This document shows positions 5,101 to 20,014 of a stretch of DNA of 64,000 nt, one piece after another. Numbering within the stretch: the first letter of the stretch is position 1; the number at the start of each line of letters is the position of its first letter. The translations under genes were made by a program, and so were the position numbers. The notes under the pieces are model-generated. The model was not told the origin of the DNA, did not search any database, and saw nothing but the letters and a program-made list of their open reading frames with translations. This DNA is from Alistipes sp. (GTDB lineage: Bacteria > Bacteroidota > Bacteroidia > Bacteroidales > Rikenellaceae): NCBI GenBank assembly GCA_017629035.1, contig JAGBXX010000023.1:124001-188000 (forward strand), given 5' to 3'.

Positions 5101-5547
5101 TTAAAAGGGAAACCACATTTCCCCAGAAAGATATGAAATTAGAGCACCAAGAGCACATGTAATAATAATAAACCACAAACAGCCTTTATTTTCACTATCA
5201 CCTTTACTACTCTTTTCAATTTCCTCAAGCTTTTTCATTTCTTCCTGAGTTTTATACTGCTTGAGTTGCTCACACTCATTTTCTTTTTTGGAAATTGCTA
5301 TTTTCATTTCAGGAGTCAATGTAGGATTCTCTTTGGCTGCTGCAACTACCGTTATCGCAGTATCTCTAATACATATCCATAGGACCTTTTCATTATGAGT
5401 CTCTTTAGCTACTTTCCTTCGAATATTGGCTTTAAGTCTTTCTCCACGTAATAAAGCATTTTCATATCCGGCTAAATCGTTAGGTATCTCTGAATCCTTA
5501 ATAATTTCACCATACTCATTAATCTTGTAATTGCCACCTATTCCCAT
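5101..5547 (-). CDS. small membrane protein, INEYGEII leader family, LRV/HEAT-like helices
   Basis: 148 residues. The N-terminus carries the recurring hairpin motif (YKINEYGEIIKD, about residues 7-18). Residues 30-90 are helical and contain a unit like leucine-rich-variant repeats (ICIRDTAITVVAAAKENPTLTPEM), closely matching the equivalent part of the next gene upstream. A Lys/Glu-rich coil (about 90-115) leads to one C-terminal membrane helix (about 123-142). No catalytic motif is visible. Tail-anchored topology with a cytosolic N-terminus is likely. It is a paralog of the protein at 5575-6330 and sits near the end of the accessory operon. Function unknown; the shared leader suggests a common partner. 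Confidence 0.7.
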   Translation of the reverse strand: MGIGGNYKINEYGEIIKDSEIPNDLAGYENALLRGERLKANIRRKVAKETHNEKVLWICIRDTAITVVAAAKENPTLTPEMKIAISKKENECEQLKQYKTQEEMKKLEEIEKSSKGDSENKGCLWFIIITCALGALISYLSGEMWFPF

Positions 5548-5574
5548 AATTTAGATCCAATTATTATTAGCACA

Positions 5575-6330
5575 TTAATGGATATTTGCAGCAATTAATG
5601 CTATAAGCAAGCACAAAGCAATAAAGATAAACAGCCAAATGGAGTTTTTAGAATCTTCATTTTGTTTGGACTGAATCACATTTGCATAATGATTTTGTGA
5701 TGTAACAGTTGCTAATAGTTTACCAGACATTCTATTGAATGATAACACTATAACATCACCTGGATGAGCGAAACATTGAGTTGTACGGAAACCGAATTTG
5801 AACGTTAGCTCGCACGGATTAGATATATATACTGGCAACATTGAATTTCTCGCAACACTCGCAACTATATTATCATTGATATATATGTCTACATTTGGGT
5901 TAACAGCAAAACTCTCTGTGTATCCATGTACCATAACTTGCCCACATTGATGTGAAGATGAACTTGGTGGAGCAATAATATTTGAAGGTTTTGGTTCGCT
6001 ATTTCTTATTTTTGTAGGATTAACAGCTACTGGATTAACCGGTTTCTTTGGTCGTACAACAGAACTTTTGTCAAGAAGTCTCTGTCTAGTTACTTCCATG
6101 CGCATCTCTGGAGATAAATGAGGATTTTTCCAAACAAGTCTTCTTACAGTTATGGCTTTATCTTTTAAACATAACTCCAACACTTGTAAATTTTGTGATT
6201 CTTTCGCCAAGCGTTTTCTATCCTCAATATTAAGCGGTATACCTTTCAAATACTTATGTTCGAGAGAGAATAGGTCGTTATCTTCTCGGATTATTTCGCC
6301 ATACTCATTAACCTTAAAATCCATTCCCAT
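5575..6330 (-). CDS. membrane protein, INEYGEIIR leader, LRV-like helices plus PEGA-like beta domain
   Basis: 251 residues. The leader FKVNEYGEIIRED lies at about residues 5-17. Residues 25-85 resemble the paralog at 5101-5547 (CLKDKAITVRRLVWKNPHLSPEM is the repeat-like unit). A proline- and serine-rich linker (about 90-125) is followed by a small all-beta segment (about 128-210) with alternating strands, similar in feel to PEGA or transthyretin-like carrier domains. A C-terminal membrane helix spans about 227-247. It is encoded between two other leader-family genes with about 30-nt gaps. The linker and beta domain are absent from the shorter paralog. No enzyme signature is seen. Confidence 0.68.
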   Translation of the reverse strand: MGMDFKVNEYGEIIREDNDLFSLEHKYLKGIPLNIEDRKRLAKESQNLQVLELCLKDKAITVRRLVWKNPHLSPEMRMEVTRQRLLDKSSVVRPKKPVNPVAVNPTKIRNSEPKPSNIIAPPSSSSHQCGQVMVHGYTESFAVNPNVDIYINDNIVASVARNSMLPVYISNPCELTFKFGFRTTQCFAHPGDVIVLSFNRMSGKLLATVTSQNHYANVIQSKQNEDSKNSIWLFIFIALCLLIALIAANIH

Positions 6331-6364
6331 ATAGCTACGTACTATTAGTAATTAAAAATTATAT

Positions 6365-6889
6365 CTATTTCATACTTTTAATGGTGTGGGATATGTTAGA
6401 TAGCTTATTGAATAGATATTTAATAAAGAAGCAAATAGCAATAGTAATGACTATGGATATTATACCAACAATCATACTTCTCCAATATATTTCAGTAGTG
6501 TAATTCCCGCATCCATCCCAATGCTTTGTTACTCCTCGGTCTATTCGCATACAGCCATAAATAAAACTACATACGCTCAAAACGATAGTGAGTGCCAAAC
6601 TCCGTAGTAGTTTCACATATCGCCAGCCATAATCGGCTTTCTTTAACTCACAAGGGAAATTGTCTAATTGCAGAGTCTCAACATACTCTTTATAATCTGG
6701 TCGTTTTGCACTTTCTTTGCAAAGTTGATAACATTTCTTACGAGCTTTATATGCCGCTAAGATATCATCTTTACTAGCTCCGACTCGTATGATGTTTAAC
6801 ATTGCAGTATCCAACTCATTATATGGACGCTTTATTGTTCCATCTTCTGCAATTGCGTAATTCCCGTTAATATTACTATTCATTCCCAT
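6365..6889 (-). CDS. two-helix membrane protein with IAEDGTI variant of the shared leader
   Basis: 174 residues. The N-terminus reads MGMNSNINGNYAIAEDGTIK; YAIAEDGTIKRP is the AEDG variant of the hairpin motif found in its neighbours. Residues 25-85 are predicted helical and cytosolic. Two membrane helices follow (about 92-112 and 134-157), with a short loop containing CxxYG and WDGCG between them. It overlaps no neighbour but is only 5 nt from the next gene upstream (6895). Function not recognised; membership of the leader family is the main clue. Confidence 0.65.
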   Translation of the reverse strand: MGMNSNINGNYAIAEDGTIKRPYNELDTAMLNIIRVGASKDDILAAYKARKKCYQLCKESAKRPDYKEYVETLQLDNFPCELKKADYGWRYVKLLRSLALTIVLSVCSFIYGCMRIDRGVTKHWDGCGNYTTEIYWRSMIVGIISIVITIAICFFIKYLFNKLSNISHTIKSMK

Positions 6890-6894
6890 AATAA

Positions 6895-7413
6895 TTATAA
6901 ATCATATAATGTAAAATTAAAATTCTTATTAGAATGATAGACATATAGATTTCCTCTATAAGAACTACCATCAAATACGCCTTCAAAAGTACCAGTCTTT
7001 TCGCCAGAAGCATTATATTCATCTAGCCTCAGGATGTCATTTACTACGGTTCCGTGTAAAGTTAGCTTATTGTTGGCCCCATTTTTAAGATAGTAATACC
7101 AGCCTGAATAAATACTGTTCCCTTCATATTTTAAGTACATTTTAACAGTTAATGAACTTCCAATAATACCATTAAGATAGACTTCATAGCCATTCTGTAT
7201 ACTTGCTGGTGGATTACAATTATAATTGTTTTGGTTTTTGCTTAGCATGTAGCTACTTAAGTTATTACTCAACAAAAATCCCATAATAACCAAAACAAGC
7301 AAGATAATGAAGTACAAAAAAATTTTATTTTTCTTCTGCGGCTTTTTATTTCTGGCAGTATCATCAGCTCTGATAATCTCGCCATACTCATTAATCTTAA
7401 AATCTGCTCCCAC
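6895..7413 (-). CDS. single-pass membrane protein, INEYGEIIR leader, lipocalin-like outer domain
   Basis: 172 residues. The leader FKINEYGEIIRADD (about 5-18) is followed by a basic stretch (RNKKPQKKNK) and one membrane helix (about 30-50), so the leader should be cytosolic and residues 60-172 periplasmic. The outer part is rich in alternating strands with Gly/Tyr turns (YLKYEGNSIYSGWYYY, GTFEGVFDGSSYRGNLYVY), as in small calycin or MORN-like beta domains. No catalytic residues are apparent. Separated by 33 nt from the GYF_2 gene upstream. Confidence 0.66.
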   Translation of the reverse strand: MGADFKINEYGEIIRADDTARNKKPQKKNKIFLYFIILLVLVIMGFLLSNNLSSYMLSKNQNNYNCNPPASIQNGYEVYLNGIIGSSLTVKMYLKYEGNSIYSGWYYYLKNGANNKLTLHGTVVNDILRLDEYNASGEKTGTFEGVFDGSSYRGNLYVYHSNKNFNFTLYDL

Positions 7414-7446
7414 TTCTAATTTAAGGAATTAGTTATCTTTTATCTA

Positions 7447-7740
7447 CTATTTTCTTATTATTGTTCCGTCTTCAGCAATGCGGAATCCCAAATGAGGATT
7501 AAACTTCTCATCGAAGCATTCAAAATACTTCGCCTCATACCACTCGTCATTAAGCGTGTTAGTAGTAATCAATGTATCTTCAAGTAAAGGATATTCCTTA
7601 ATCTCAGACAAGGAAAAGGGGCCAAAGACCGTTTCTTCGAAATTCACATAAAACTGCAGGTCAGGAGATGAAAAGACATCTCCTGATCCAGTAGTCTCCA
7701 TCTTCTTTTTACTGCCAAAGAGGCGTTTAAAGAATCCCAT
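7447..7740 (-). CDS. GYF_2-domain protein with C-terminal IAEDGTIIR motif
   Basis: 97 residues. A basic N-terminus (MGFFKRLFGSKKK) precedes a GYF_2 (DUF4339-type) domain at about 28-75: LQFYVNFEETVFGPFSL, then a Leu-rich helix and a W-Y-E-A turn. GYF-type domains usually bind short peptides. The last residues (GFRIAEDGTIIRK) are the same hairpin motif found at the N-terminus of neighbouring proteins, here at the C-terminus, showing that the motif is a movable module. The gene is 9 nt from the DUF4234 gene upstream. Likely an adaptor; partner unknown. Confidence 0.75.
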   Translation of the reverse strand: MGFFKRLFGSKKKMETTGSGDVFSSPDLQFYVNFEETVFGPFSLSEIKEYPLLEDTLITTNTLNDEWYEAKYFECFDEKFNPHLGFRIAEDGTIIRK

Positions 7741-7749
7741 AATCGATAA

Positions 7750-8298
7750 TTACGCCTTTTGGCCGAATGTGTTAAGATTATATATTTTATTGACTGTGTT
7801 ATGTTGCTTTACATAGCGAGACATTACGAATATTCCCCATATAATTTGAGCAACATAAAGTATCATTGCAATCGTTGATGCGTATCGTGATGCAAATGAT
7901 AATATAAATGTGATTAACATTAGAAACACCAAACTACCACCACTTAGTATTCCGCCTTGGCTTCTGTTTCTAGTTAGATACTCATACTCTCTATTTGCCC
8001 ATTTGTAATACCAAACGAACCCATAGATACCTAGCGTAATAATGGAGAGAAATATCGCACCCCAAAACCCTCTTGTATGCTTGCCATCTTCTGCACAAGA
8101 GATGTTAGTTTCTTTTGCCATTGCAAACATAACAACTACTCCATATATGCCTAATGTAAGGAAAGATAGTAGCCATATCTTCCACACTTTACGATTTGTA
8201 GGTAGCACCTGTGGAGTGGTTCCTTTTACTTGAGAGAAGAAATAGTCCTCTCTAATTATTTCGCCGTATTCGTTAATCGTATAATTTATTTGTCCCAT
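7750..8298 (-). CDS. DUF4234-like polytopic membrane protein with INEYGEIIR leader
   Basis: 182 residues. YTINEYGEIIREDY lies at about 6-19. Two copies of the DUF4234 signature follow: FLTLGIYGVVVMFAMAKE (about 46-63) and IITLGIYGFVWYYKWANRE (about 86-104), then two more membrane helices (about 120-160). Four membrane segments in total. DUF4234 proteins are uncharacterised small membrane proteins. The leader again places it in the family encoded on either side. It directly follows the E1-like gene (gap about 27 nt), linking the leader family to the conjugation genes. Confidence 0.75.
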   Translation of the reverse strand: MGQINYTINEYGEIIREDYFFSQVKGTTPQVLPTNRKVWKIWLLSFLTLGIYGVVVMFAMAKETNISCAEDGKHTRGFWGAIFLSIITLGIYGFVWYYKWANREYEYLTRNRSQGGILSGGSLVFLMLITFILSFASRYASTIAMILYVAQIIWGIFVMSRYVKQHNTVNKIYNLNTFGQKA

Positions 8299-8325
8299 AA
8301 TAATATGGTGTTAATAATCAAATAA

Positions 8326-9447
8326 TTATTCTTCTTTAGGAGCATAAGGCACCTCTATACTTGTCGTAACCTGTAAAGGGTACGAGAAGATTTCTGCATT
8401 ATCTCCACCAATTTTAGGATTATTTGTGTTGCAAATTAGAGTATATTGGGTAAGATGGCCCAGCAAGCGAGTAGTGTAGTTAGGATTATTCCTATTCAAA
8501 ATGTCAAGAGCCAACTTAATTGCAATAACCGTAACAAAATCAATATCTACTGAAATGCCAGGTTCAAAAATTGCCTTTTCCAACTCTTCCTCATTGGTAT
8601 AGAATTTTCTATTTTGATTTACACGCCCAGATGTATCACCTAACGCATACATGAAATCCTCATAATCGGGCATTCCATCAGGCAGGCAATAGAAAATCTC
8701 GCCAGCAAAGGCTCTCTCCCAGCATCCAATTGACATAAGAGGCATACCAACCTCCTTTGCAATCTTATTTGCATACAAATCACCTTCTCGATTATCTGCA
8801 CCGCCTATTACAATTGTATTCTCATCGCAGAACTCATCAAACACATTAAGAGGAACTTCTTGAACTGTCATATTCTGAGTAACCACATGTGCTGAAGGGT
8901 TAATCTGCAGAATACGTTCTTTTACTGCATCGGTTTTATATTTACCTACATCCAAAATTCCACACTGGTGACGGCAAATATTATGATATCCGAGAATGTC
9001 GTTGTCTATTAACAAGAATCTACCGACACCGGCTTTCGCAAGTTCTAACGCAACTAAACTTCCAACAGAGCCGCAGCCAACTAACATTGCACCTGTTTTC
9101 AGCATCATATCTGATTCCAAGATGCCGACATTACGTGAGAAAATATCTAACTTGAGCGAATAAGGCTCTTTTTTACATACAACGCCCTCGCAATCAATAA
9201 ACTGAATGCAATCATTTTCAAAATATCCAATAAGTCCTTTGTTTGGATTATTAGTAGGCTTGTTTTCTACAACTTCACCTAATTCAATAAGGTTAGAGTA
9301 GCTACTATCGCTTTTCGTTGTAACAATGTTATAATGGTTACTGTTTTCAATATGTAAACCATATATCTTACCTACATATTTATCCTTTTCTAATTCAAGA
9401 GGGAAATATACAGTAGGCTTAATCTTTCGTTTTCCTAAAGTAATCAT
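8326..9447 (-). CDS. ThiF/E1-like ubiquitin-activating enzyme
   Basis: 373 residues. An N-terminal domain of about 115 residues is unassigned. The adenylation domain then shows the Rossmann loop VGCGSVGS (123-130), acidic D148/D150 after the second strand (LLIDND), the arginine of NICRH (R159), K169/K171 of GKYKTDAVKE, and D218 of GGADNREGD; all are hallmarks of E1/ThiF/MoeB adenylation enzymes. C242 in SIGCWER is a candidate conjugating cysteine but this is inference. It would adenylate the C-terminus of a ubiquitin-like protein. The gene is 5 nt downstream of the JAMM peptidase gene and near the E2-like gene, the classical E1-E2-JAB arrangement of bacterial ubiquitin-like systems. No zinc CxxC pairs typical of some MoeB proteins are seen. 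Confidence 0.9.
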   Translation of the reverse strand: MITLGKRKIKPTVYFPLELEKDKYVGKIYGLHIENSNHYNIVTTKSDSSYSNLIELGEVVENKPTNNPNKGLIGYFENDCIQFIDCEGVVCKKEPYSLKLDIFSRNVGILESDMMLKTGAMLVGCGSVGSLVALELAKAGVGRFLLIDNDILGYHNICRHQCGILDVGKYKTDAVKERILQINPSAHVVTQNMTVQEVPLNVFDEFCDENTIVIGGADNREGDLYANKIAKEVGMPLMSIGCWERAFAGEIFYCLPDGMPDYEDFMYALGDTSGRVNQNRKFYTNEEELEKAIFEPGISVDIDFVTVIAIKLALDILNRNNPNYTTRLLGHLTQYTLICNTNNPKIGGDNAEIFSYPLQVTTSIEVPYAPKEE

Positions 9448-9452
9448 AGTCG

Positions 9453-11027
9453 TTATAAATTTTCTGATTTAAAAGACACATCTCCCGCTCTGTGACGATT
9501 ATAAGAATCTACCCACTTATAGAGATGTTTGATTGTTTCAGCACCATTCATACGTTTATCTTTGCTGGCAAATTCAAGATACATATCCCCATTATCATCA
9601 GTCTTTATATAAGATGATTTGAGTCCATTCTCAGATGTAAACATTTCTGCCAGCTCCGGCATGATAAAATATATTCGAATTGAGCCATCATTGATGTAAT
9701 TTGTAGAATAGATCATCTGATAAGCCAAGGTGTGTTCTTGACGGGTAATATGTCTATCAGTGATGACTGTGTAAACAAGCTTACCTTCTTCAAAACTACA
9801 TTCAGCATTTGTCTCCGCATTACGTATTGCAGTATCCTCATCGTAGAATAAATCCTTTCGTTTCTGATACCAAGGCATATTCTGATACGCTTTGATAAAC
9901 TCAATTAGATTTAATACTCCAATACTTATCAAACTCAACAACAAACCAAGAAGTATTATCAAAGCAATAAATGCTAATGATAATTTTATTGGCGATAGTA
10001 AGAGGATAAGAAAAGCCAGAGCAAAACTTCCTATTCCGCAGTAAACATACTCTTTACGACATAATGGAATAAATATCAGGCTTATCACCAATGCACTAAT
10101 TGCAATAAAACCATATTTAACAACATCAATTAAAGTATGCTGTTTGATATATACTGCTGCCCTAGCTTTCTGTTTAATTATCTCTTTTTCTGTTTTTTTG
10201 TCTATCTCCGTTATTACCTCTGTAGCTTCTCTTACACAAACGCCTTTTGAATCGGTAGAGTTGTATACAAGTTCAAAAAGGGTACTCTGCTTACTTGCAC
10301 TATCACCAACAATATTTTGGCTTGTTTGTATGACTACAAAAAACAACAAGAAGAGTGTAGACAACAGGATAAGTACGGCTGATTTTAGATATTTTACATC
10401 ACTCTTTTTCGGTTGAATCGCTATTGAAGTCTCGCTGGTTGAGTTTGACTTTTGCTCTGACATACTCCCGATATTCGTCCAATCGTTTTTTTTTTCAGGA
10501 TAAGGAGCAGGATTAAGTCCCTTCTCGGGGAAATGTCTCAATTTGAAATAATCTTCAGGAATCAAGTCATCTCCAACCTCAACATCGACAATTTCGTAAT
10601 GCAAAGGGTTGGATACATGACGCATAGTCAATCTAAAGTTTGGATCTACATTAACCAATCCTGAAATAGCACCACAAGACCTTAAACCAGCAAAAATACG
10701 ATTTGTTCCATCATCAGTCCCTGAGAAAGTATCCATACTACCTGGGTGTCTGTGCCACAAACCAAGCAGTTCCAGTTTATTTTCATATTTTGAGGCAACA
10801 GATTCTGCAAGGTAATTAACAAACTTTTCATCATATTCAAAATATGCATATTGATGAACAGAATCTATACCAGGAGGTATCACTTCCATAACGACCCAAA
10901 ATCCATTGTCTAACACATGGCCTAATAAAATACCACCTGTTTCAATAGGGTCTTTACGGAAAGTCTCATCGATAATGGCGTTATAGGCCTTATCTGAGAA
11001 TATTACAATTTGACAATATTTACCCAT
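9453..11027 (-). CDS. JAMM/JAB isopeptidase with membrane segments and an inactive E2-like C-terminal domain
   Basis: 524 residues. Residues 1-170 form a JAB/MPN+ domain with E29 (ETGG), H92 and H94 in WHRHPGSMDTFSGTDD, S102 and D105, the full zinc-metallopeptidase set, so it should be an active deubiquitinase-like enzyme. About five membrane helices lie at 215-365. Residues about 390-515 resemble the C-terminal domain of the E2-like protein encoded next to it: the pattern SIRIYFIMPEL and the following GDMYLEF align with SVRVYLIQPDI and NQLYLC. The cysteine position is E485 here, so this second domain is probably a non-catalytic UEV-like fold. It likely tethers deconjugation or processing to the inner membrane. 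Gaps to E1 (5 nt) and E2 (11 nt) indicate co-translation. Confidence 0.87.
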   Translation of the reverse strand: MGKYCQIVIFSDKAYNAIIDETFRKDPIETGGILLGHVLDNGFWVVMEVIPPGIDSVHQYAYFEYDEKFVNYLAESVASKYENKLELLGLWHRHPGSMDTFSGTDDGTNRIFAGLRSCGAISGLVNVDPNFRLTMRHVSNPLHYEIVDVEVGDDLIPEDYFKLRHFPEKGLNPAPYPEKKNDWTNIGSMSEQKSNSTSETSIAIQPKKSDVKYLKSAVLILLSTLFLLFFVVIQTSQNIVGDSASKQSTLFELVYNSTDSKGVCVREATEVITEIDKKTEKEIIKQKARAAVYIKQHTLIDVVKYGFIAISALVISLIFIPLCRKEYVYCGIGSFALAFLILLLSPIKLSLAFIALIILLGLLLSLISIGVLNLIEFIKAYQNMPWYQKRKDLFYDEDTAIRNAETNAECSFEEGKLVYTVITDRHITRQEHTLAYQMIYSTNYINDGSIRIYFIMPELAEMFTSENGLKSSYIKTDDNGDMYLEFASKDKRMNGAETIKHLYKWVDSYNRHRAGDVSFKSENL

Positions 11028-11038: not shown

Positions 11039-11830
11039 TTAAAGAACACCGTGAGTATTGAACTGCTCTTGTGATAAATCACCTGTCAGTACCAACTCAA
11101 ATGACATGAGCCACTTAACTGCCCATGCAATTACAGATGCCGCAGATGTTGTTTCTTTACCAGTTTTAATATTACCAGCTTCCGCAGTACACAAGTAAAG
11201 TTGGTTATTGCTATCCATAAGCAGATGCAAAGGTCTCCAACCAAGATCTTTAATTAGTTCATCAATATCCGGCTGAATTAGGTATACGCGAACAGAACTA
11301 CCCATAACCTGCTGAGGGTGGTTATTATTGTATACAGCCATAATATGCCACTCGTTATCACCGAGGATACCAATGTTAAGAGAACCAACCCAAGCCAAAC
11401 GGCCATCATCTAATTTATCCAAAGTGAATCCTGGGAATGCGTGATTCATTGCAGCCTTTTCTGCCATAAGGAGTCCCGGATCCTTCTCATACCACTGAGC
11501 TACTGCCAATTTGCCTTTGGGAATCACAATTGAAGATGAGTCATCTCCCTTAGTAACATTGCCATCAGGGGCAATTGTAACTTTTTTACCCTCGAGCAAC
11601 TTCTTCTTGAGTTCCTCACGCTTTTTCTTCAAAATATCATCATCGGCTGCCAACTTTCCTTTCGGAATTACGATAGACGATGAGTCATCGCCCTTAGTTA
11701 CATTACCGTCAGGAGCAATTGTTACTTTCTTTCCTTCAAGCAATTTCTTCTTGAGTTCTTCACGCTTTGCTTTCAATGTTGCATCATCAGCTGCCATCTT
11801 AGTGGCAGGAATAGAAATCATCTTTTCCAT
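11039..11830 (-). CDS. E2-like ubiquitin-conjugating protein with two N-terminal 48-aa repeats
   Basis: 263 residues. After a short start (MEKMISIPATKM) there are two almost identical 48-residue repeats (13-60 and 61-108), each with a KREELKKKLLEGKK helix and a VTIAPDGNVTKGDD hairpin. Residues about 120-250 fit the E2/UBC pattern: GRLAWVGSLNIG, a strand and YNNNHPQQV turn, SVRVYLIQPDI, then H202 and NQLYLC. C214 is the only cysteine in the protein and falls at the E2 active-site position after the conserved His. This supports an active E2-like transfer enzyme; the assignment is by pattern, not by search. It overlaps no gene and is 19 nt from the small gene upstream, with a near-identical start region. 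Confidence 0.75.
   Translation of the reverse strand: MEKMISIPATKMAADDATLKAKREELKKKLLEGKKVTIAPDGNVTKGDDSSSIVIPKGKLAADDDILKKKREELKKKLLEGKKVTIAPDGNVTKGDDSSSIVIPKGKLAVAQWYEKDPGLLMAEKAAMNHAFPGFTLDKLDDGRLAWVGSLNIGILGDNEWHIMAVYNNNHPQQVMGSSVRVYLIQPDIDELIKDLGWRPLHLLMDSNNQLYLCTAEAGNIKTGKETTSAASVIAWAVKWLMSFELVLTGDLSQEQFNTHGVL
11507..11794 (-). repeat. two tandem 144-bp coding repeats inside the E2-like gene
   Basis: Units 11651-11794 and 11507-11650 encode 48-residue copies that differ at only a few positions near the start of the unit, while the DNA differs at many synonymous third positions (for example TTCAAGCAATTTC versus CTCGAGCAACTTC on the plus strand). The protein sequence is therefore held constant by selection, or the duplication is old. 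Confidence 0.9.
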
Positions 11831-11849: not shown

Positions 11850-12131
11850 TTATTTATTTTTAATTGCTGCATAAATTGCAAAGAATACGATCAACGCAAT
11901 TACCATAATCAATGCGGCCCCAGCACCATTAAAACGGGCCATAAGGAAAGCGCCTGCTATCAAGCCTATAATACCTAAAAACAATTGTCCCCATTTTACC
12001 TTTTTCTTATCTGGGTTACTATTGTTATTGTATTGCGAACTTTGAAGTTTTCTCTTTAACTCCTCTTGCTTTTGCCTTAAAGAATCATCGCCAGCCATCT
12101 TAGTGGCAGGAATAGAAATATTCTTTTCCAT
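11850..12131 (-). CDS. small two-helix membrane protein sharing the E2 start and EELK motif
   Basis: 93 residues. The start MEKNISIPATKMAGDD is nearly identical to that of the E2-like protein, followed by RQKQEELKRKLQSS, the shared amphipathic motif. After a charged linker come two membrane helices (about 50-68 and 70-88). The DNA around both starts is also near-identical (see the repeat at 11793-11846 and 12095-12148). It could anchor the E2-like protein or its partner to the membrane through the shared N-terminal module. Function not recognised. Confidence 0.7.
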   Translation of the reverse strand: MEKNISIPATKMAGDDSLRQKQEELKRKLQSSQYNNNSNPDKKKVKWGQLFLGIIGLIAGAFLMARFNGAGAALIMVIALIVFFAIYAAIKNK

Positions 12132-12151
12132 AAGTTTATGTTTTTAAAAGT

Positions 12152-12373
12152 TTATTCACTTTCTACTATAACACCAGTCGTTATAAATTTATCTATTAAT
12201 CTCCTATACTCTTGTAGCGAACTACTTTCATAATCAAGAATCCTTGCTGAAATATTCCTAATAGCATCCAATAAACTCTTAATATCGTCATTTGATTCTG
12301 TATGAAGGTCATTTTCAATAGACTCTATTCGTTGGCCAATAACCAACAAATCCCCAGACATATCCAAAGCCAA
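12152..12373 (-). CDS. small helical protein of unknown function
   Basis: About 73 residues from a TTG at 12373, or 69 from the in-frame ATG at 12361, which I prefer. Predicted all-helical (SIENDLHTESNDDIKSLLDAI, SSSLQEYRRLIDKF), no membrane helix, no cysteine and no Gly-Gly tail, so it does not look like a ubiquitin-like modifier. Its 5' part overlaps, in another frame, the radical-SAM-like remnant at 12315-12464. It may be a fragment of a larger ancestral gene. Low certainty that it is independently translated. Confidence 0.45.
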   Translation of the reverse strand: MALDMSGDLLVIGQRIESIENDLHTESNDDIKSLLDAIRNISARILDYESSSLQEYRRLIDKFITTGVIVESE

Positions 12374-12464: not shown

Positions 12465-12484
12465 CAAGTAGCTGTTAAACTAAT

Positions 12485-12679: not shown

Positions 12680-12715
12680 AATCCATTGCTCCCAGACAGT
12701 TGTATTGATAAGATT

Positions 12716-12913: not shown

Positions 12914-13052
12914 ATGTCGATTTAGATATCTTTGCTTCCCATTTTTCTAAGAGACTTTTCTCTTTATCTGTAGGAATGAATGGTACACCTTTTAACCGTG
13001 CTTTAAGTTCCTCTCTTTTTAATTTTAAAACTTCTTCTCTAATCTCGTCCAT
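12900..13052 (-). CDS. 50-aa EELK-motif protein
   Basis: ATG at 13052, stop at 12900-12902. The protein begins MDEIREEVLKLKREELKARL, an amphipathic helix with the cluster's KREELKxxL signature, followed by KGVPFIPTDKEKSL and a second helix with WEAKI. It lies 5 nt after the 176-aa gene and overlaps the next gene by 14 nt, so spacing supports real translation despite its length. Likely a minimal version of the module repeated in the E2-like protein. Confidence 0.6.
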   Translation of the reverse strand: MDEIREEVLKLKREELKARLKGVPFIPTDKEKSLLEKWEAKISKSTYDTQ

Positions 13053-13057
13053 AACGA

Positions 13058-13588
13058 TCAGAACTTAAAATCCTTATAATAATCATCTTGACTACGATAA
13101 TCCATTATCTGTTTAATCTCTTCATTTGAGTATTGTCCCGGACGCGTACCATTATCCGGTTCAAAGAAAGTTCCTTCTTCTCTCCAATAATCACGCTCTC
13201 TTTTTTCATTATGTACTACGCCATCTCTTTCTTGGATTTCCTTAAATGCCTCAACGGGTATGCTTACTCCATATTTATCTCTCACACTTCCAGTATATGA
13301 TGCACCCGCAGCACACATAAATGTCAAATCTGCTGGTATTCCAGTAAGTTGCTCCATTTTTTGCATCTGCTCATCAAGAAATACCAACAAATCATTTATG
13401 CCTTTTCCAGATATTCCTGAACCACCATGTATATAAAGTTCCATCTTCTCTTTATAGGCATTCATATAATTATCATAATATCGTTGCTGCACAGCATCTT
13501 TCCAATCTTGTGCTGTCACATCACTTTGTACTTCGATTTGCCTCTGCACCTCTTGCACCTGCATTGCAAAATCTGGTATATTACTCAT
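13058..13588 (-). CDS. uncharacterised 176-aa protein of the WXG cluster
   Basis: 176 residues, mostly helical at the N-terminus (QVQEVQRQIEVQSDVTAQDW) with a glycine-rich loop (IHGGSGISGKG, about 53-63) and a CAAGASYTG segment (about 92-100). The C-terminal third is charged (DYWREEGTFFEPDNG). No membrane helix or signal peptide. Its ATG overlaps the stop of the Cys-rich gene upstream (ATGA), so the two are translationally coupled and may form a complex. It could be a chaperone or a secreted substrate of the WXG100/FtsK apparatus; neither is shown by sequence. Confidence 0.6.
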   Translation of the reverse strand: MSNIPDFAMQVQEVQRQIEVQSDVTAQDWKDAVQQRYYDNYMNAYKEKMELYIHGGSGISGKGINDLLVFLDEQMQKMEQLTGIPADLTFMCAAGASYTGSVRDKYGVSIPVEAFKEIQERDGVVHNEKRERDYWREEGTFFEPDNGTRPGQYSNEEIKQIMDYRSQDDYYKDFKF

Positions 13589-14430
13589 CGCGAAAAATCG
13601 TTTCTGATAATTTGTATATCCGCTCTTGTATACTCTCTTTCTCTTGTATTATTGCAAATACATGCGATTGGAGGTCTTCCACATCGAGGACATCTTATAA
13701 CTCTATTGGCATCAGCAATCTGACGGCTACCATAGTTTTCGTTTTGTTGACGCTCAATTACTTTTTGAACGGCGTTATTAAATCGTTCTTTTTTCTCTTC
13801 AGGACTTAGTGTTTGGCTCGAGCCGTTAGTCACATCGATGTCAGTAGGAGTTGCTGAAAAACATGAAGCCTGCGTAGACATATTATATCGAAGATATTTC
13901 TCAACTACAGCAAGAATATCTCGCATCTTAGAAGTTGCTTTATCCGTGTGGTCCTTTGCTAAGGCTTCCATTAATTTCTCACCTCCAGGAGGAATTATGA
14001 AGCCTGGAACCTTTTTATATTCATCTATTTCATGCTCACAGCCATCACATATACACTTCGCCTTTTCATACTTTTCTTGGCATCTATTGCGTCTTTCTCG
14101 ACATCGTTCTACTATAGAAGCCTCACTATCGCAAGACGGTGTATAGTATCCACCATGTGTATTACCATCTTCATCCTCGTATTCATCAACCCAGCGTTGT
14201 GATGCAACACAGGAACTATGAGCTCTCTCCGCTTCTGCCAATGCTTCTTCAGCCTCACGCAGTTCCTCCTCAAGCACCTTCATTTGATTTTTTAATGCTT
14301 CAATAACCCCTTTTAAATAGGCGTCTACTTGCTCTAATATTTTAAGGATAGAGTCGGCACTATACTCCAAGGTGTTATTTAGTTCTATAAGCGATTGGTG
14401 ATCGCGAATATGTGCTGATGGTTCACTCAT
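13585..14430 (-). CDS. coiled-coil Cys-rich protein with zinc-ribbon-like C-terminus
   Basis: 281 residues. Residues 1-75 form a helical WXG/LXG-like N-terminus ending in a strong coiled coil (LEEELREAEEALAEAERAH). A cysteine cluster follows at about 73-135 (C of HSSC, PSCDSE, ERCRERRNRC, KCICDGC), then a helical middle, and near the C-terminus a zinc-ribbon-like CPRCGRPPIACIC (about 248-260). Cysteine density is unusual for a Bacteroidota cytosolic protein and suggests metal binding. Located directly downstream of the two WXG100-like genes, where effectors or adaptors of type VII systems are often encoded. Function is inference. Confidence 0.6.
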   Translation of the reverse strand: MSEPSAHIRDHQSLIELNNTLEYSADSILKILEQVDAYLKGVIEALKNQMKVLEEELREAEEALAEAERAHSSCVASQRWVDEYEDEDGNTHGGYYTPSCDSEASIVERCRERRNRCQEKYEKAKCICDGCEHEIDEYKKVPGFIIPPGGEKLMEALAKDHTDKATSKMRDILAVVEKYLRYNMSTQASCFSATPTDIDVTNGSSQTLSPEEKKERFNNAVQKVIERQQNENYGSRQIADANRVIRCPRCGRPPIACICNNTREREYTRADIQIIRNDFSR

Positions 14431-14449: not shown

Positions 14450-14743
14450 TCAACGACCCAATCCTGCTTTGGCGGCCTCATATTTAAGGGCTAGTTCAAT
14501 ATATGGTGGAAGATAATTATTAGCCCAATTCAGATATTTTTCGGAAAGTTCACTTATGAGTTCTCTACTTGATTTAAAATCATCTTCAAACTCCGAAAAT
14601 TTATCATCCAACCAAGACTCACCCAAATTAGCCTCGTTATTTTTTAATGTTTCATATGTTTCATTCAACTTTTCAGATAGTTTTCTTAAATTAGATTGAA
14701 GATCTATAAGAGATTTTGAACTAACATGTGCAAAGCTGTCCAT
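14450..14743 (-). CDS. WXG100-like helical-hairpin protein (second of pair)
   Basis: 97 residues, all helical, with a central turn motif GESWLDDKF placing W44 near the midpoint, as in WXG100 (EsxA/EsxB) proteins; the third turn residue is Asp rather than Gly. The pattern resembles the turn QEWKDPQF of its neighbour (14763-15035), so the two may form a heterodimer. No signal peptide. The C-terminus (KAGLGR) is not the usual YxxxD/E secretion signal in that exact form, although YIELALKYE lies just before it. Encoded next to the FtsK/SpoIIIE ATPase, which in type VII systems recognises such proteins. Confidence 0.72.
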   Translation of the reverse strand: MDSFAHVSSKSLIDLQSNLRKLSEKLNETYETLKNNEANLGESWLDDKFSEFEDDFKSSRELISELSEKYLNWANNYLPPYIELALKYEAAKAGLGR

Positions 14744-14762: not shown

Positions 14763-15035
14763 TTACAAATTTTCGTATTCATATACTATATCATAAAGGC
14801 CTCTTAGAACATCATCTTCATACTCCTCTATCTTTTTGCATAAGGGCTCTATTTGTTCTTTATCTTTGCTAAATTCATCGTAATACTTCTTGAATTGAGG
14901 ATCTTTCCATTCCTGAGAAACTTCGTCAATCGCATTTTCTGTAGCTCTCAACTGTTCCCTCAAATCCTCTACTGTATCTAATAACTCGTTTCGAAATTTC
15001 TTCAGTGAAGTGGAGTTAGTTATAACACTAGCCAT
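14763..15035 (-). CDS. WXG100-like helical-hairpin protein (first of pair)
   Basis: 90 residues, helix-turn-helix with QEWKDPQFKKYYDEF at the centre (W43) and a C-terminal segment ending DIVYEYENL. Size, central Trp and lack of signal peptide match WXG100 proteins; the WxD turn replaces WxG. The start lies 9 nt downstream of the ATPase gene stop, so ATPase and substrate candidates are co-transcribed. Likely a substrate or structural partner of the translocase. Confidence 0.72.
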   Translation of the reverse strand: MASVITNSTSLKKFRNELLDTVEDLREQLRATENAIDEVSQEWKDPQFKKYYDEFSKDKEQIEPLCKKIEEYEDDVLRGLYDIVYEYENL

Positions 15036-15044: not shown

Positions 15045-18000
15045 TTATTTGTATGGTTTAAACTTGATATTGATATTTCTGTTGTTATCCCTGAAATATG
15101 CTCTAAACACAGAACTTGGGCGATTGAAAACAAAGAGTTTGCTAGCAATTGAAGAGCCTACAATCTTGTTAGAGTCATTTTCTGTCATTTGCAATGCTAC
15201 ACGGTATGTAAAGCTTGATAGAGGGTTACCTATTCGTGAAAGGTTATCCCAATTATCACACTGCATGATAGTAAATACACCTACGGCTGGACCATTTTTT
15301 AAGATATAATCAAGTAACATTCCGCTTTCCGATACATCATCACCTCGTCGCCCGCCTTTATCAAACATTCTTGCTAATTGAAACGCATATATTGATAAGT
15401 ATATGTGATTTTGTAGACACTCTTCATCCTTTCGACGTTCATCAATTTCTTCTTTAATAGCAGTGAGAGACTCTATAATCTCGGTTGTTTTTGAAACTAT
15501 CTGAGAACTGAATGGTAGCGATTCAAATACACTTTGCAGTTCTTCATTCAATGTATCATCGCGACGCATAAAGTTCAAAGTTACAAATGTTGCACTTTGA
15601 TCAGTATGAGCTGTAGATGCTGAAATTGTTGCGTAATAAGCGATTCTTTGTGCAACATGTGGTTCTCCTCCCAATATCAAGATGTTATTGGCAGATTCTT
15701 TGCGTAATATTGCACATATGTCTGTTTCGTGAATAGATATTGACTCTCCTAAATATATTCCGACGGACTCTGGCATGCTTGAAGGAATCTGATGGCATCT
15801 AGCCACTCTTCTATTTTTAAACTCTGGCAAATCATTACCTCGGAATACGACCATATCGTGTTTCCTCTGATAATGTGAATTATCTGCAAACTCTGATATC
15901 TGATTTAACAATTTATCAATATCTATCTTTGTAACTAAGAAGCCCTGGACCTTATGATTATCATAAGGTGAGCCAGATTCAGAATTATATATACATTCTC
16001 CTGTATGCAACTGAGGAACCTTTCCGCTAATTGGCAATGTGATTAGAGATGAAAAATCCACAGGAGAACTCTTAAAGACAACTCTATTAGCAATTAGATC
16101 TTTTGGTAAAATCGACGAAGATGGAAGTTTCTGAGTAGCCAAAACCAAATTAATTCCAAATTTTCTGAACTCTTGAATAATAGTATGAATCTTGGCGTTA
16201 GCTTCTCGGCTTATCAAATCGTTCTCAATTTCAAATATCTTTTGGAACTCGTCAATAACAACCAACAGTCTAGGAATGTGTAGAGACGGGTTCTTCGCCT
16301 TCAAATCTACAATGTTGCTAACATCGTTGCTTCTACAGAGTTCCATTCGTCTCGCACCTTCCTCTACCAACTCATTTAATATGCTGAGACCGAATTCTCG
16401 CTCTGCTTCTGGAGCAATCACACGTGCATGTGGCAAATTATGAAGTGCATACGAATTAAACTCAACGCCTGAAAAGTCTATTAAATACATATTTAACTCA
16501 TCAGGAGAGTAATTGATAGCGGCATTACAAATTAGAGCATGGAGGAATACGCTCTTACCAGAACCTGGAATACCTATTACTACAGCTGAATTCTGACCAC
16601 TTTCTTGAGTGATTTTTAATTTTTGGATTTGCCTATCCTCTGACATTCCAAATGGTATTTCAATATACTTAGCACTTTTTCTTTGCCACCACTCAGATTG
16701 GTTAGTCATATAGTCAGCAAACAATATAGCCTCTTCTTTGCGGATTTCGACGCCCGAATTGACATACTGAACTATCTTGCGTAAATGTTCTTCCGCAAAT
16801 GAATCAAAGTCTATTTGCTCATTATTTTTTGTCAAATCATAGACGAAGCAAACACGCTCAAGCTGTCCAATATTGCTACTGTTGTATATTTTGCGTGTAT
16901 CTTCAGAACAATCAATCTTATCTTCATTAACTAACATTACAACATTTACACCAGCCCGAATACCATTCTTCAATATTTTTTGCAATAGAGAGATGGATTC
17001 ACTATTAAACCCTATTGGAAAGTCCTTTATGACAATCACATGATACGGTTCCTTATTCTCTTTAGCTTGGTTATAATCATACAATGATTTAATAGAGCCT
17101 AATAAAAGGTTCTGGATTATATTGCCTATGTGTCTTTCTTTCTCATCCAAGTATTTTCGGATATCTTCAGGCCTTGCTAAAATCTGGAAAATATTCCTGT
17201 TTAGAAACTTAAACACATCACAAGTTCCATCCATTTCTTCAGCATCAATCATGGCAACATTTAGTTTGCCAGGGGATGATGATGCCATTAAGCGACCTAC
17301 TAATGAATTTACAATTTGATGAGCTTTCTGTTTGGTGATATTGTTATGTCGGATTATTAAATTTTGGTTATTCAATAATTCAACATAGCAATTTTCGCTT
17401 ATGGTTATATTTTCTCCAAGTATTGCAAATCTGTGTTCTTTCTTTCCAACCATTACTAATGATGATGGCATAGTTCCCTTGTCATCAATACTATCCCATA
17501 GAGACATATCGGCCTTTGATGTCTCATATAGATGGTTGAAATATGCCTCATAATAGGATTGCCCGCTACTATAAACATTTTTAATCGCTACCAATATGTC
17601 TCTTTGCAAACTCTCATAGGCCTGTTTAACTTCGCGTTTCTTAACAGCATTTTTTTCTAATTCTTCAGCTTGTATCTTCTTGTATTTTGCAATTATTTCG
17701 GCACGACGTGTACTTAAAGTTGCTTTAAGGGAAGCTATTGCAATGTCTACATTTTTAGAGTTCTTAATAGATTCTATTTGCTGATTTATAGTCTCAATTA
17801 AAGCACGTTCTTCCTCATTTGACTCTTTAACACATGTTCTATGAGTCGCTTGAGCACTGTTATCTAACAACATTATATCATTCTCGAAAGAAGACTGAAT
17901 TCGAAGTGTCTTTTCGGCTACAATACCCAGTACTTGTTTTAAAGAATTAATGAATTTTGAGTATTCTTCTATGTAATATTGTTTTTCTAACTCAACAGTA

Positions 18001-18662
18001 GGGAATACTTTTTGGTATACTATCTTTTGACCATCTGCTGCTTGAATAGTATTCTTAATTAATACACACAACTCATTGCTAAGCTCACTATATTTTGACA
18101 CGCTATCAATAGCCATATCATACACAGGGGTATCAGGCTCAACATCGATGGCATCATCCAGTTTATTTTGTAATCTTACCAATTGGTCTTTCAGTTGTAC
18201 AATTTCTGCCTCTTGTTCTTCAATAATTTCTTCAAGTTCGTCTGTGTTTGGTATTTCAACTATAGGAGTATCAACCTTATTGTCTTCCTCCGATAATAAA
18301 TCTATAGCTGATAACAGCCCTTTAATTTCGCTGGCATGTAACCAACTATTCATATTGTCTATGCTCAACAAAGAGTTCGCTTCTATATCTAAAAAGGAGA
18401 GTTCGGGCAATGAATATGGACCATAATTATCCTCACCCAACCTTAGATAATATATTGCATTATAAATATCAACATCACCATTAGAATTATCGTCATGGGC
18501 AATAAAATCAACTAACTCTGAATATGATTCTACGGGAGCCCATTCTTCTGATAATGTAGAGTAAACTTGGGCATTCGGCATTAACCCAAATGTTTTCATT
18601 TGCTCCAATTCGTATGGACCGAAATGTTGTCCATCTAGCTCAACAAAATAGTGCGTATTCAT
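15045..18662 (-). CDS. FtsK/SpoIIIE (EssC-like) ATPase with two N-terminal GYF_2 domains
   Basis: 1205 residues. Two GYF_2 domains open the protein (HYFVELDGQHFGPYEL at about 4-19 and YYLRLGEDNYGPYSL at about 71-85). Coiled coil follows (about 130-175 and 300-360). A first, degenerate ATPase-like module lies at about 400-620. The second has intact Walker A IGIPGSGKS (about 694-702) and Walker B LLVVIDEFQ (about 797-805) plus ATQKLPSSS sensor-like residues, as in FtsK/SpoIIIE. A third module near 1000-1200 has GGEPHVAQR where a P-loop would be, so it is probably non-catalytic. This order of tandem ATPase modules resembles EssC/EccC of type VII secretion, but I see no membrane helices or FHA domains. 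GYF_2 domains may dock it to membrane partners. Confidence 0.87.
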   Translation of the reverse strand: MNTHYFVELDGQHFGPYELEQMKTFGLMPNAQVYSTLSEEWAPVESYSELVDFIAHDDNSNGDVDIYNAIYYLRLGEDNYGPYSLPELSFLDIEANSLLSIDNMNSWLHASEIKGLLSAIDLLSEEDNKVDTPIVEIPNTDELEEIIEEQEAEIVQLKDQLVRLQNKLDDAIDVEPDTPVYDMAIDSVSKYSELSNELCVLIKNTIQAADGQKIVYQKVFPTVELEKQYYIEEYSKFINSLKQVLGIVAEKTLRIQSSFENDIMLLDNSAQATHRTCVKESNEEERALIETINQQIESIKNSKNVDIAIASLKATLSTRRAEIIAKYKKIQAEELEKNAVKKREVKQAYESLQRDILVAIKNVYSSGQSYYEAYFNHLYETSKADMSLWDSIDDKGTMPSSLVMVGKKEHRFAILGENITISENCYVELLNNQNLIIRHNNITKQKAHQIVNSLVGRLMASSSPGKLNVAMIDAEEMDGTCDVFKFLNRNIFQILARPEDIRKYLDEKERHIGNIIQNLLLGSIKSLYDYNQAKENKEPYHVIVIKDFPIGFNSESISLLQKILKNGIRAGVNVVMLVNEDKIDCSEDTRKIYNSSNIGQLERVCFVYDLTKNNEQIDFDSFAEEHLRKIVQYVNSGVEIRKEEAILFADYMTNQSEWWQRKSAKYIEIPFGMSEDRQIQKLKITQESGQNSAVVIGIPGSGKSVFLHALICNAAINYSPDELNMYLIDFSGVEFNSYALHNLPHARVIAPEAEREFGLSILNELVEEGARRMELCRSNDVSNIVDLKAKNPSLHIPRLLVVIDEFQKIFEIENDLISREANAKIHTIIQEFRKFGINLVLATQKLPSSSILPKDLIANRVVFKSSPVDFSSLITLPISGKVPQLHTGECIYNSESGSPYDNHKVQGFLVTKIDIDKLLNQISEFADNSHYQRKHDMVVFRGNDLPEFKNRRVARCHQIPSSMPESVGIYLGESISIHETDICAILRKESANNILILGGEPHVAQRIAYYATISASTAHTDQSATFVTLNFMRRDDTLNEELQSVFESLPFSSQIVSKTTEIIESLTAIKEEIDERRKDEECLQNHIYLSIYAFQLARMFDKGGRRGDDVSESGMLLDYILKNGPAVGVFTIMQCDNWDNLSRIGNPLSSFTYRVALQMTENDSNKIVGSSIASKLFVFNRPSSVFRAYFRDNNRNINIKFKPYK

Positions 18663-18668
18663 AATTAC

Positions 18669-18941
18669 TTATGCTAAAATTCTTAATATTTCTTTTGCTT
18701 TACTTTTACTGAAACCTCTAGCTCTAATCCATTCTCCACCTTTACTAGAAATAAGAACATCGGCGAAAAATAAGCCGCTACTTAATGAAACACTTGCAAC
18801 ATTATGCCTAGCAATAACTATTGTCGTATAACCAAGTACATAACCTTTGTAATAAATGACATTATAATCATCTATTTCTAGCATATCGGGATATAATGCA
18901 TTCTGATCTGATGACACACGACTTGCTATGAATGTTGGCAT
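18669..18941 (-). CDS. bacterial PH-like domain protein
   Basis: 90 residues. The strand-rich pattern (MLEIDDYNVIYYKG, TTIVIARHNVASVSLSSGLFF, GEWIRARGFSKSKAKEILRI) matches small bacterial PH (bPH) domains: a seven-strand barrel closed by a C-terminal helix. Such domains bind peptides or lipids at membranes. It is encoded between the ATPase and the GYF_2 membrane protein with gaps of 6 and 4 nt, so it is probably a subunit or adaptor of the same complex. Confidence 0.65.
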   Translation of the reverse strand: MPTFIASRVSSDQNALYPDMLEIDDYNVIYYKGYVLGYTTIVIARHNVASVSLSSGLFFADVLISSKGGEWIRARGFSKSKAKEILRILA

Positions 18942-18945
18942 AATA

Positions 18946-19428
18946 TTAGTTCGTTGATGATAGTTTAATGCTGTAATATATTAGTTGTATTAGTGAAATT
19001 ATAAAGAATGGAATAGCAACAATTACAGAAACAATCATAAATGAAATAATTTTCATCACAAAGCCCATTCCTCCTCGATCAAAAGAAGTTCCCGCAAATA
19101 TGTTACTCCGCCACGTCTCTCCAACTCCGATAATAGCTAATCCTGCAAGACCTAAAGTTAATACCCCGATTAAAGCGGCTTTCCTTTTTTGCTTATATAT
19201 TAATCGTCGATTATCATATAACGGTTGACGTACTTGAATGTTAGTATGTTGATTAGTTGAATTAAACAAATATCTCAATTCGGGCATTTCAGCAGCATTT
19301 GTCCAATCTGAATCTGCACGACTTACCAATGTATCTGGTAACAGCCCGAGATTTGAGACTTCATCAAGAGAATAAGGCCCAAAAACTTGATTATCAAGAG
19401 CTACATAATATTGATTTGTATTTGCCAT
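18946..19428 (-). CDS. GYF_2 domain plus two-helix membrane protein
   Basis: 160 residues. N-terminal GYF_2 domain (QYYVALDNQVFGPYSLDEV, about 6-24, through W and the following LRYLF) similar to those of the ATPase. A basic linker (RRLIYKQKRK) leads to membrane segments at about 84-102 and 122-152. Because the ATPase itself lacks membrane helices, this protein is a plausible membrane anchor that shares its domain type. It lies 4 nt downstream of the UpxY-like gene. Confidence 0.72.
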   Translation of the reverse strand: MANTNQYYVALDNQVFGPYSLDEVSNLGLLPDTLVSRADSDWTNAAEMPELRYLFNSTNQHTNIQVRQPLYDNRRLIYKQKRKAALIGVLTLGLAGLAIIGVGETWRSNIFAGTSFDRGGMGFVMKIISFMIVSVIVAIPFFIISLIQLIYYSIKLSSTN

Positions 19429-19432
19429 CTTT

Positions 19433-20014
19433 TTACATCATAACATTCTCAATACAATCTTTAGAAAGATGCGTAGTTGCATAACCTAATAAGTCTAAAT
19501 GTATGGCAATATCTGAATTTCTCACACCACAACAATACCCAATGAAGCCTTTAAGGGGACCTTTCACAATCCTGACCGCATCACCAATCTCAATGTGTGC
19601 ACTAAAAGCAACAGGAGATTCAGAATGCCTTAATAGAAATTTTATCTGCTCGATCTGTTCATCTGGAATTGGAGTTGCCAATTCATTAGTCCCAGGATAG
19701 GTTAAAAATTTCATTATGAACGGCAATCGACGAAATTCATCTTCTTCATCTTTAGCGAGACGAACAAAAACAACCATAGGTATTACAATCCTATCTATCT
19801 TTTTCTTGCGGTCACTCCACTGGTGTTCTTCCGTTTGGATCGCCACATAATTTTCTATTCCAAGTTTGTCTAGTTTTGTCGCAACTTTCTTTTCACAATT
19901 AGTATGAACAAGAGCCGCAACCCAGCGTTTGGGGTACGCTTCGCGGTCGTTTGTCACATTGACAAGCGAGTTTTTGTTATTGCGTATACCGCCCTCAACT
20001 TCTACCTTGTTCAT
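19433..20014 (-). CDS. UpxY-like NusG-family transcription antiterminator
   Basis: 193 residues. After a 28-residue extension, the NusG N-terminal (NGN) domain is recognisable: RWVAALVHTNCEKKVATKL, then KIDRIVIPMVVFVRL and the FLTYPGTNE segment. A KOW-like domain follows (IGDAVRIVKGPLKGFIGYC, about 143-161). Specialised NusG paralogs of this type (UpxY in Bacteroides capsule loci) act on the leader of their own long operon to prevent premature termination. Here it is the first gene of a run of about 15 kb on one strand, fitting that role. It is preceded by about 600 bp of AT-rich non-coding DNA. Confidence 0.87.
   Translation of the reverse strand: MNKVEVEGGIRNNKNSLVNVTNDREAYPKRWVAALVHTNCEKKVATKLDKLGIENYVAIQTEEHQWSDRKKKIDRIVIPMVVFVRLAKDEEDEFRRLPFIMKFLTYPGTNELATPIPDEQIEQIKFLLRHSESPVAFSAHIEIGDAVRIVKGPLKGFIGYCCGVRNSDIAIHLDLLGYATTHLSKDCIENVMM

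Follow-up and report, generated by a model that had tools for sequence, protein, structure and literature searches.

The window analyzed here is a stretch of 64,000 nucleotides (nt) from Alistipes sp. (assembly GCA_017629035.1, contig JAGBXX010000023.1, positions 124,001 to 188,000 of the forward strand). It comes from an 85%-complete assembly of 1.8 Mb in 41 contigs, and it contains an operon in which genes for a ubiquitin-like conjugation pathway stand together with genes for an EccC/EssC-like ATPase and a pair of WXG100-like proteins. The operon occupies the minus strand from position 20014 down to 5101 and is compact, with about 23 open reading frames (ORFs) separated by gaps of -62 to +36 nt (Table 1); two of these ORFs (about 12900-13052 and 12315-12464) are shorter than the listing limit of 60 amino acids (aa). 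Its first half encodes, in this order, a UpxY antiterminator, a GYF_2 protein with transmembrane (TM)-like segments, a PH-like protein, an FtsK/HerA ATPase, and the two WXG100-like proteins; the second half encodes a 281 aa protein, a 176 aa protein, several small ORFs, an E2, a JAMM/JAB peptidase, an E1, and six small tail genes. An initial annotation had described a minus-strand operon with a WXG pair, an EssC-like ATPase, a ThiF/E1, a JAMM peptidase, and an E2, and this gene content is confirmed by ORF calls, Pfam, NCBIfam, and PADLOC. In our view the operon very probably works as one unit.

Table 1. Features of the operon, with window coordinates.
Feature	Position	Strand	Evidence
UpxY-type transcription antiterminator, accessory head gene	19433..20014	-	NCBIfam antiterm_UpxY 4.9e-37, over cut-off
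GYF_2-domain protein, two TM-like segments	18946..19428	-	Pfam GYF_2 5.5e-9
Bacterial PH-like small protein	18669..18941	-	Pfam bPH_3 E 0.0018, under cut-off
EccC/EssC-like FtsK/HerA ATPase, N-terminal GYF_2 stretches, one Walker A (residue 697)	15045..18662	-	
WXG100-like protein a (W-x-D)	14763..15035	-	
WXG100-like protein b (W-x-D)	14450..14743	-	
281 aa protein, coiled-coil-like, Cys-rich C-terminus (by eye), conserved beside ATPase	13585..14430	-	
176 aa protein, conserved beside ATPase	13058..13588	-	
Window-specific small ORFs	11850..13052	-	Lacking between g08 and E2 of L026 and L027
GKLA unit 1, N-terminus of E2 gene, candidate modifier	11648..11830	-	
GKLA unit 2, candidate modifier	11504..11647	-	
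E2 (UBC-like) core, Cys214 and His202	11039..11503	-	PADLOC E2 7.5e-11 (best)
JAMM/JAB peptidase, TM-like segments, C-terminal E2-like domain without Cys (9471-9875)	9453..11027	-	Prok-JAB 1.5e-8
E1 (ThiF/MoeB/UBA5-like adenylating enzyme)	8326..9447	-	ThiF 3e-24
Six tail genes	5101..8298	-	7750-8298 DUF4234; 7447-7740 GYF-like; 6895-7413; 6365-6889; 5575-6330; 5101-5547

Conjugation enzymes and the ATPase/WXG module

The three enzymes were compared with their counterparts in related loci, which are numbered L026, L027, L028, L038, L039, L040, and L047 and described in the next section. A four-row E1 profile matches the PDB sequences of UBA5 (3.6e-14), MccB (8e-13), Cap2 (4e-9), and BubCD (6e-7), and the GxGSVGS stretch is invariant across seven aligned rows, as are D148, D150, R159, K171, and D218, which we take to be nucleotide-site residues. 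The metal-site residues of the JAMM peptidase (E29, H92, H94, S102, and D105) are invariant in all six rows available. This protein ends in an E2-like domain, which matches the E2 profile at 6.3e-7 in the window and 1.1e-12 in L026 and lacks the cysteine in the alignment; the JAB proteins of L027, L028, L038, and L040 gave no match to this domain when searched by profile. Cys214 and His202 of the E2 itself are likewise invariant (6/6 rows), and the cysteine is present in L047 too. No Pfam E2 family matches this protein, and its alignment gave nothing meaningful against the PDB. The PADLOC models for E1-E2, E2, and JAB all match proteins of the operon. No CD-NTase cyclase was found in the Pfam and PADLOC scans of the operon; a single 'cyclase' model of PADLOC overlaps the region of the E2 and nothing else (E 0.034).

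The ATPase matches Pfam FtsK_SpoIIIE at 8e-23 and the NCBIfam models EccCa (3.9e-23) and EssC (9.5e-20), the latter two under their cut-offs, and is related by PDB sequence match to the structures of EccC5 and YukB. All five E1-linked ATPases have a single Walker A motif; the degenerate domains that flank it were read by eye only. The WXG100-like proteins carry W-x-D instead of W-x-G. Individually they match Pfam WXG100 under the cut-off (E 0.003 for protein a, 0.014 for protein b), and in a six-row alignment their best PDB sequence match is EsxA (7.5e-5). In L039, one protein beside the ATPase (6322-7368) joins a WXG-like N-terminus, again with W-x-D, to an HExxH stretch; it may be an effector.

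These relationships raise the question of secretion. The initial annotation had proposed that ubiquitin-like conjugation governs substrate export or assembly in a diderm cell, as in a type VII-like secretion system, and the kinship of the ATPase to EccC/EssC, the WXG pair alongside it, the WXG-like/HExxH protein next to the ATPase of L039, and the TM-like segments in 16 of 19 tail proteins would fit such a machine. However, a crude hydropathy test finds no TM-like segment in any of the five E1-linked ATPases, that of the window included; the same test finds one in four of eight homologues from loci without the E1 (L014, L015, L016, and L017). Type VII membrane components (EccB/D/E or EssA/EssB/EsaA) gave no Pfam match at E up to 1 among 20 operon proteins, although very divergent ones could escape, and no outer-membrane partner was seen in the operon. 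Nor was a YukD-like ubiquitin-like protein (Ubl) found, which is usual in type VII loci (PMC11217815). We therefore regard controlled export as improbable.

Recurrence of the two modules across genomes

Related loci were sought in several genome collections, each of which is a sample. A scan of 84,980 genomes with patterns from two E1 sequences, which distant members escape, returned three loci. Two of them, L026 (Alloprevotella sp., roe deer rumen) and L027 (Prevotellaceae RUG071, presumably of a rumen set), encode E1s of 96% and 75% identity to that of the window and repeat its gene order, ATPase-WXGa-WXGb-281aa-176aa-E2-JAB-E1-tail. The third, L028, has E2-JAB-E1-TM protein, and neither an ATPase nor a WXG gene lies within about 20 kb of it; a search of 395 genomes of the phylum added L038, again E2-JAB-E1-TM protein without the ATPase. 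Two contigs without an assigned host class hold both modules. L039, an unverified fecal scaffold found by tblastn of phage records, encodes an E1 of 47% identity, an ATPase (2.2e-46), and the WXG-like/HExxH protein, followed by recombinases; L040, from a scan of viral contigs, encodes the unit discussed below, E2, JAB, E1 (46%), ATPase (3.6e-34), WXG (1.2e-4), a motif A TM protein, and Sel1-repeat proteins. In both, the enzymes lie upstream of the ATPase; the Prevotellaceae loci have the two modules the other way round. L047, where a contig end carries the unit and E2, is uninformative on the ATPase. The idea that a JAB gene ends within L039 at 1-579 was unsupported (E 0.4).

The initial annotation had made its case depend on whether the two gene sets co-occur elsewhere. 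The E1 does adjoin the ATPase/WXG set in four further loci and in two module orders, so that, of the seven E1 loci whose flanks are informative, five (window, L026, L027, L039, and L040) have both halves. Both are also rare. ATPase homologues occur in 4 of 200 genomes of the family and 6 of 393 of the order, the Alistipes genome itself being counted each time. The E2 was found in that genome only among 180 genomes of the genus and 315 of the class, and in one other of the 395 phylum genomes, the find that gave L038 (1/79 in the family of that genome); JAB was found in the Alistipes genome and one other of 393 in the order. JAB relatives of about 45% identity exist on Gloeothece plasmids, where neither a ThiF nor an FtsK gene is annotated over 30 kb of the record inspected. 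Searches for JAB and for the E1 pair alignment in viral contigs, for E2 and the L039 E1 in plasmids, and for the L040 JAB in phages gave no matches.

Two independent systems could also come to share one defense island, whether fortuitously or because they form a selfish pair. Each half does occur alone: eight other genomes have the ATPase, with a WXG-like neighbor in five of the eight (phmmer), and none has such an E1, E2, or JAB at the ATPase locus, nor does the E2 profile find a match anywhere in these eight genomes, while it does in both controls. The E1-linked ATPases, moreover, fall into two groups on the ATPase tree (two changes, with a long-branch warning); on the E1 tree one change suffices, at a support of only 63/65. 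From these trees, the link between E1 and ATPase would either have arisen twice or have been lost in some lineages. Against two separate systems stands the presence of both halves in most informative loci, in two module orders and within a single tight operon, and because both halves are rare, repeated chance pairing is unlikely. We rejected pure chance on the co-occurrence in L026, L027, L039, and L040, and consider two unconnected systems very improbable.

The cassette also appears to be working and not decaying, given the low ratios of non-synonymous to synonymous substitution rates (dN/dS) between the window and L026, which range from 0.010 to 0.182 in 13 of 14 genes (g22 was not estimable), with values of 0.010 for WXGa, 0.011 for E2, 0.038 for E1, 0.059 for the ATPase, and 0.136 for JAB. 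The single machine of the initial annotation thus gains from recurrence and from these ratios, and is weakened by the separate occurrence of each half.

Other genes of the operon are conserved to varying degrees. The antiterminator does head the operon, as had been noted, but we rejected it as a core part: only a remnant of ~190 nt matches in L026, and no counterpart was found in L027. The GYF_2 protein is 85% identical in L026, with no counterpart found in L027, and the PH-like protein shares 97% identity with its L026 copy. ORFs related to the 281 aa protein are present in L015, L026, and L027, and the L026 copy of the 176 aa protein matches WXGa weakly (6.5e-5). Four of the small ORFs (12900-13052, 12716-12913, 12485-12679, and 11850-12131) bear, by eye, parts of the E2 N-terminal unit, of which the small ORFs of 11850-13052 may be decaying copies. 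The start of a further short ORF (12315-12464, minus strand) resembles a radical SAM N-terminus by eye and is probably a remnant. Elsewhere, another orphan WXG/FtsK system was seen on the Caballeronia plasmid pSBC2-5 (L024, 6543-16526), where, according to the record annotation, WXG100 and FtsK genes have VWA, PP2C, and Ser/Thr kinase genes as neighbors, a coupling to phospho-signaling.

The GKLA unit and the motif A proteins

The N-terminus of the E2 is made of a ~50-residue unit, present in two copies in the window, L026, and L027 and in one copy in L028 and L038. All ten unit copies (two each in the window, L026, and L027, and one each in L028, L038, L040, and L047) end in GKLA, which in the fused copies falls right before the E2 core. 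In L040 and L047 the unit is free-standing, as an ORF of 63 and 65 aa, respectively, that ends ...APEGKLA-stop and is followed by a ribosome site of the GGAGG type (AGGAGG in L040, GGAGG in L047) and a separate E2 start. An eight-row alignment has as invariant residues R, L, G, V, G, V, and, at the C-terminal end, P-x-GKLA. Between the two window copies, 21 codon differences are synonymous and 3 are non-synonymous; for the copies of L026 the numbers are 18 and 3.

An invariant C-terminus, tandem fusion to a cascade enzyme beside a JAMM peptidase, and a free-standing form elsewhere make the unit look like a processed modifier. There are precedents for parts of this. In cyclic oligonucleotide-based antiphage signaling systems (CBASS), the C-terminal Gly or Ala of cGAS is conjugated by Cap2, and when cGAS is fused in tandem, the JAB protein Cap3 cleaves at the first C-terminus (PMC10097602); for a Ubl-E2 fusion, release of the Ubl by JAB has been proposed (PMC7159879). 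On these sequence features the unit is the best candidate for the missing tag, at a likelihood that we place just short of even.

A rival explanation keeps the single system and makes the unit a docking or scaffold segment of the E2, so that E1 and E2 would act on some other C-terminus, for instance one belonging to a distant Ubl or to either WXG protein, in the way that Cap2 acts on cGAS. Parts of the unit do appear, by eye, on other proteins (the small ORFs of the window and a 217 aa protein of L027), as would be expected of a docking peptide; cGAS itself serves as a modifier in CBASS without a beta-grasp fold (PMC10097602), and a ThiS profile finds no ThiS in the Alistipes genome at its given completeness. 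On the other hand, the invariant part of the unit is its extreme C-terminus, which in L040 and L047 is directly followed by the stop codon, and no other operon protein was seen, by eye only, to have a C-terminus conserved across the loci. A docking role is a tentative second to that of a modifier.

The six tail genes share a short peptide, motif A, of the form [IV][NA]E[YD]G[ET]I-like (for example, INEYGEIIR and IAEDGTIIR), which is sited N-terminally, internally, or at the last residues of proteins whose bodies otherwise differ (DUF4234, GYF-like, Sel1, MORN, and others). TM-like segments occur in five of these six and in 16 of 19 motif A proteins overall. Exact DNA patterns for the motif, two in number, occur in the Alistipes genome at three and two places, all inside the operon, with 0 and 1 for the reversed controls. 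A loosened expression matches the six tail genes and one unrelated ORF among the 71 ORFs of the window (0.135 expected on shuffling), and 13 tail proteins (14 matches) plus one unrelated protein among 131 ORFs of six E1 loci; since the expression was loosened after L038 and L040 had been viewed, the count is not blind. It matches none of 150 ORFs in nine ATPase-only loci and none of 55 in two other plasmid loci. Because the motif travels with E1/E2/JAB even where the ATPase is missing (L028 and L038), its partner is probably one of these enzymes. In L027, a motif A protein (12164-13123) joins Sel1 repeats to a match to elongation factor Tu domain 2 (1.9e-6, under cut-off), and in the window a stop-broken ORF right after the tail genes (about 4115-5081, minus strand), WG-repeat-like by eye, begins with motif A as MGYEFIINDCGE followed by a stop.

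Genomic setting and proposed model

The operon has a GC content of 0.357, compared with 0.486 for window positions 24001-64000. Downstream of it, positions 1-4064 of the minus strand hold a DUF4011/AAA_11/AAA_12/MTES_1575 helicase-nuclease of 1710 aa, which runs past the window edge and is followed outside the window by AbiH and then by the type I restriction subunits HsdS and HsdR, a defense island; the start of a DUF4011 gene follows the L026 cassette too (91% over 101 nt). Recombinase genes are found in L026 (a C-terminal piece) and, as judged by eye, in L039, L040, L047, and L038, where recombinase-like genes flank the locus. The DUF4011, AbiH, and restriction neighbors, the low GC content, the recombinase genes, and the very rare occurrence together point to a setting of mobility and defense. 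An ADP-ribosylglycohydrolase gene (6e-37; 21288-22148, plus strand) adjoins the operon head.

We propose that the operon encodes one mobile conflict system, probably anti-phage, that would act in four steps. First, the E2 would be made as a GKLA unit-GKLA unit-E2 fusion, which the JAMM peptidase would cut after ...P[KE]GKLA, freeing a modifier of ~50-60 residues with a C-terminal alanine, much as deubiquitinases free ubiquitin from polyubiquitin. Second, the E1 would adenylate the C-terminus of the modifier and hand it to the E2 cysteine. Third, the E2 would attach the modifier to targets, with the tail proteins, mostly equipped with a membrane segment and sharing a peptide that resembles the 'VTIAPDGNV' stretch of the unit, serving as anchors or as clients that bring the reaction to the membrane. 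Fourth, the EccC/EssC-like ATPase and the WXG proteins, which form a module of their own joined to the enzymes, would move, unfold, or activate the tagged protein or an effector. The steps are correlated, and we assign the chain as a whole a probability of about 0.42. Its most specific form, in which a non-beta-grasp GKLA peptide is cut from the tandem fusion, motif-marked membrane proteins are the clients, and a type VII-family ATPase/WXG arm acts on tagged proteins, we hold to be rather unlikely. That the main use of the system is defense and not secretion we hold to be about as likely as not.

Several observations weigh against this model. Each half is also found alone, the ATPase without E1/E2/JAB in the ATPase-only loci and the reverse in L028 and L038, and in L039 the E2 and JAB are not on the contig and motif A has no match. 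The only invariant cysteine of the E1 in seven rows is C158; the PCYxC stretch and the C-terminal CxxC, which we presume to be of zinc type, are kept in L028, L038, L039, and L040 and are lost together in the window, L026, and L027 (3/7), so that a normal E1 thioester step is unsupported. The unit shows no beta-grasp signal in hhalign against three ThiS/MoaD-like proteins (probability 0.3%), and no Pfam family of note. We rejected a ThiS-like beta-grasp on that result, a control against WXG being equally empty, and took the designed beta-trefoils that alone emerged from a PDB search, through a short Gly/Val pattern, as chance. The lack of ThiS similarity implies either a modifier that is very small or not of the beta-grasp type, or an adaptor, and the unit could indeed be a non-covalent adaptor of the E2. 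Its boundary is uncertain, because the N-terminal stretch ISIPATKMA of the fused unit resembles the GKLA end, and homogenization of the copies is not general, as those of L027 differ by 19 synonymous and 15 non-synonymous codon changes. The defense role, finally, rests on neighboring genes.

Among known systems, the enzymes resemble CBASS type II Cap2/Cap3 and other bacterial E1/E2/JAB operons (groups 6a-6e of Iyer et al. 2006 and the Bub/Bil systems) in having an E1, an E2 with its cysteine, and a JAMM peptidase in one operon. CBASS also provides the precedent for a non-beta-grasp C-terminus as modifier (PMC10097602); unlike Cap2/Cap3, the E1 and E2 are separate here, there is no nucleotide cyclase, an ATPase/WXG module is present, and the GKLA unit is fused to the E2. 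Closer in one respect are the FtsH-ternary conflict systems of Kaur et al. 2020 (PMC7159879), which hold a Ubl-E2 fusion, JAB, E1, and a RING E3, and for which a modifier fused to the E2 and freed by JAB has been proposed; their Ubl has EAD1, RING E3, and AAA+/vWA partners, whereas the operon described here has a short unit without a beta-grasp signal and an FtsK/WXG partner. The ATPase/WXG half resembles type VII secretion systems a-j in its EccC/EssC-like ATPase domain and WXG100-like partners and differs from them in the W-x-D motif, the ATPase without a TM-like segment, and the absence of known membrane partners and of a detected YukD. It is also similar to what a footnote in Zhang et al. 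2012 calls 'mobile versions of T7SS' (type VII secretion systems), namely a solo WXG and a YueA-like ATPase with three HerA/FtsK domains, the middle one active, in Bacteroidetes and others (PMC3482391): the phylum, the WXG-like genes, the single Walker A, and the mobile settings are shared. That footnote mentions no E1/E2/JAB partner, and here both are in one operon. In the literature searched, which included PMC1779556 and had subscription papers outside its scope, we met no description of E1/E2/JAB joined to FtsK/WXG or of the GKLA unit.

The operon links two bacterial machines that are treated apart in the literature covered, ubiquitin-like conjugation and the type VII ATPase with its WXG pair. 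Its recurrence in two orders makes the link between E1 and ATPase testable in several hosts, and through the GKLA unit one can test, concretely and at low cost, whether a modifier without the ubiquitin fold can serve in ubiquitin-like tagging. The finding also bears on the purpose of orphan WXG/FtsK systems in diderm bacteria.

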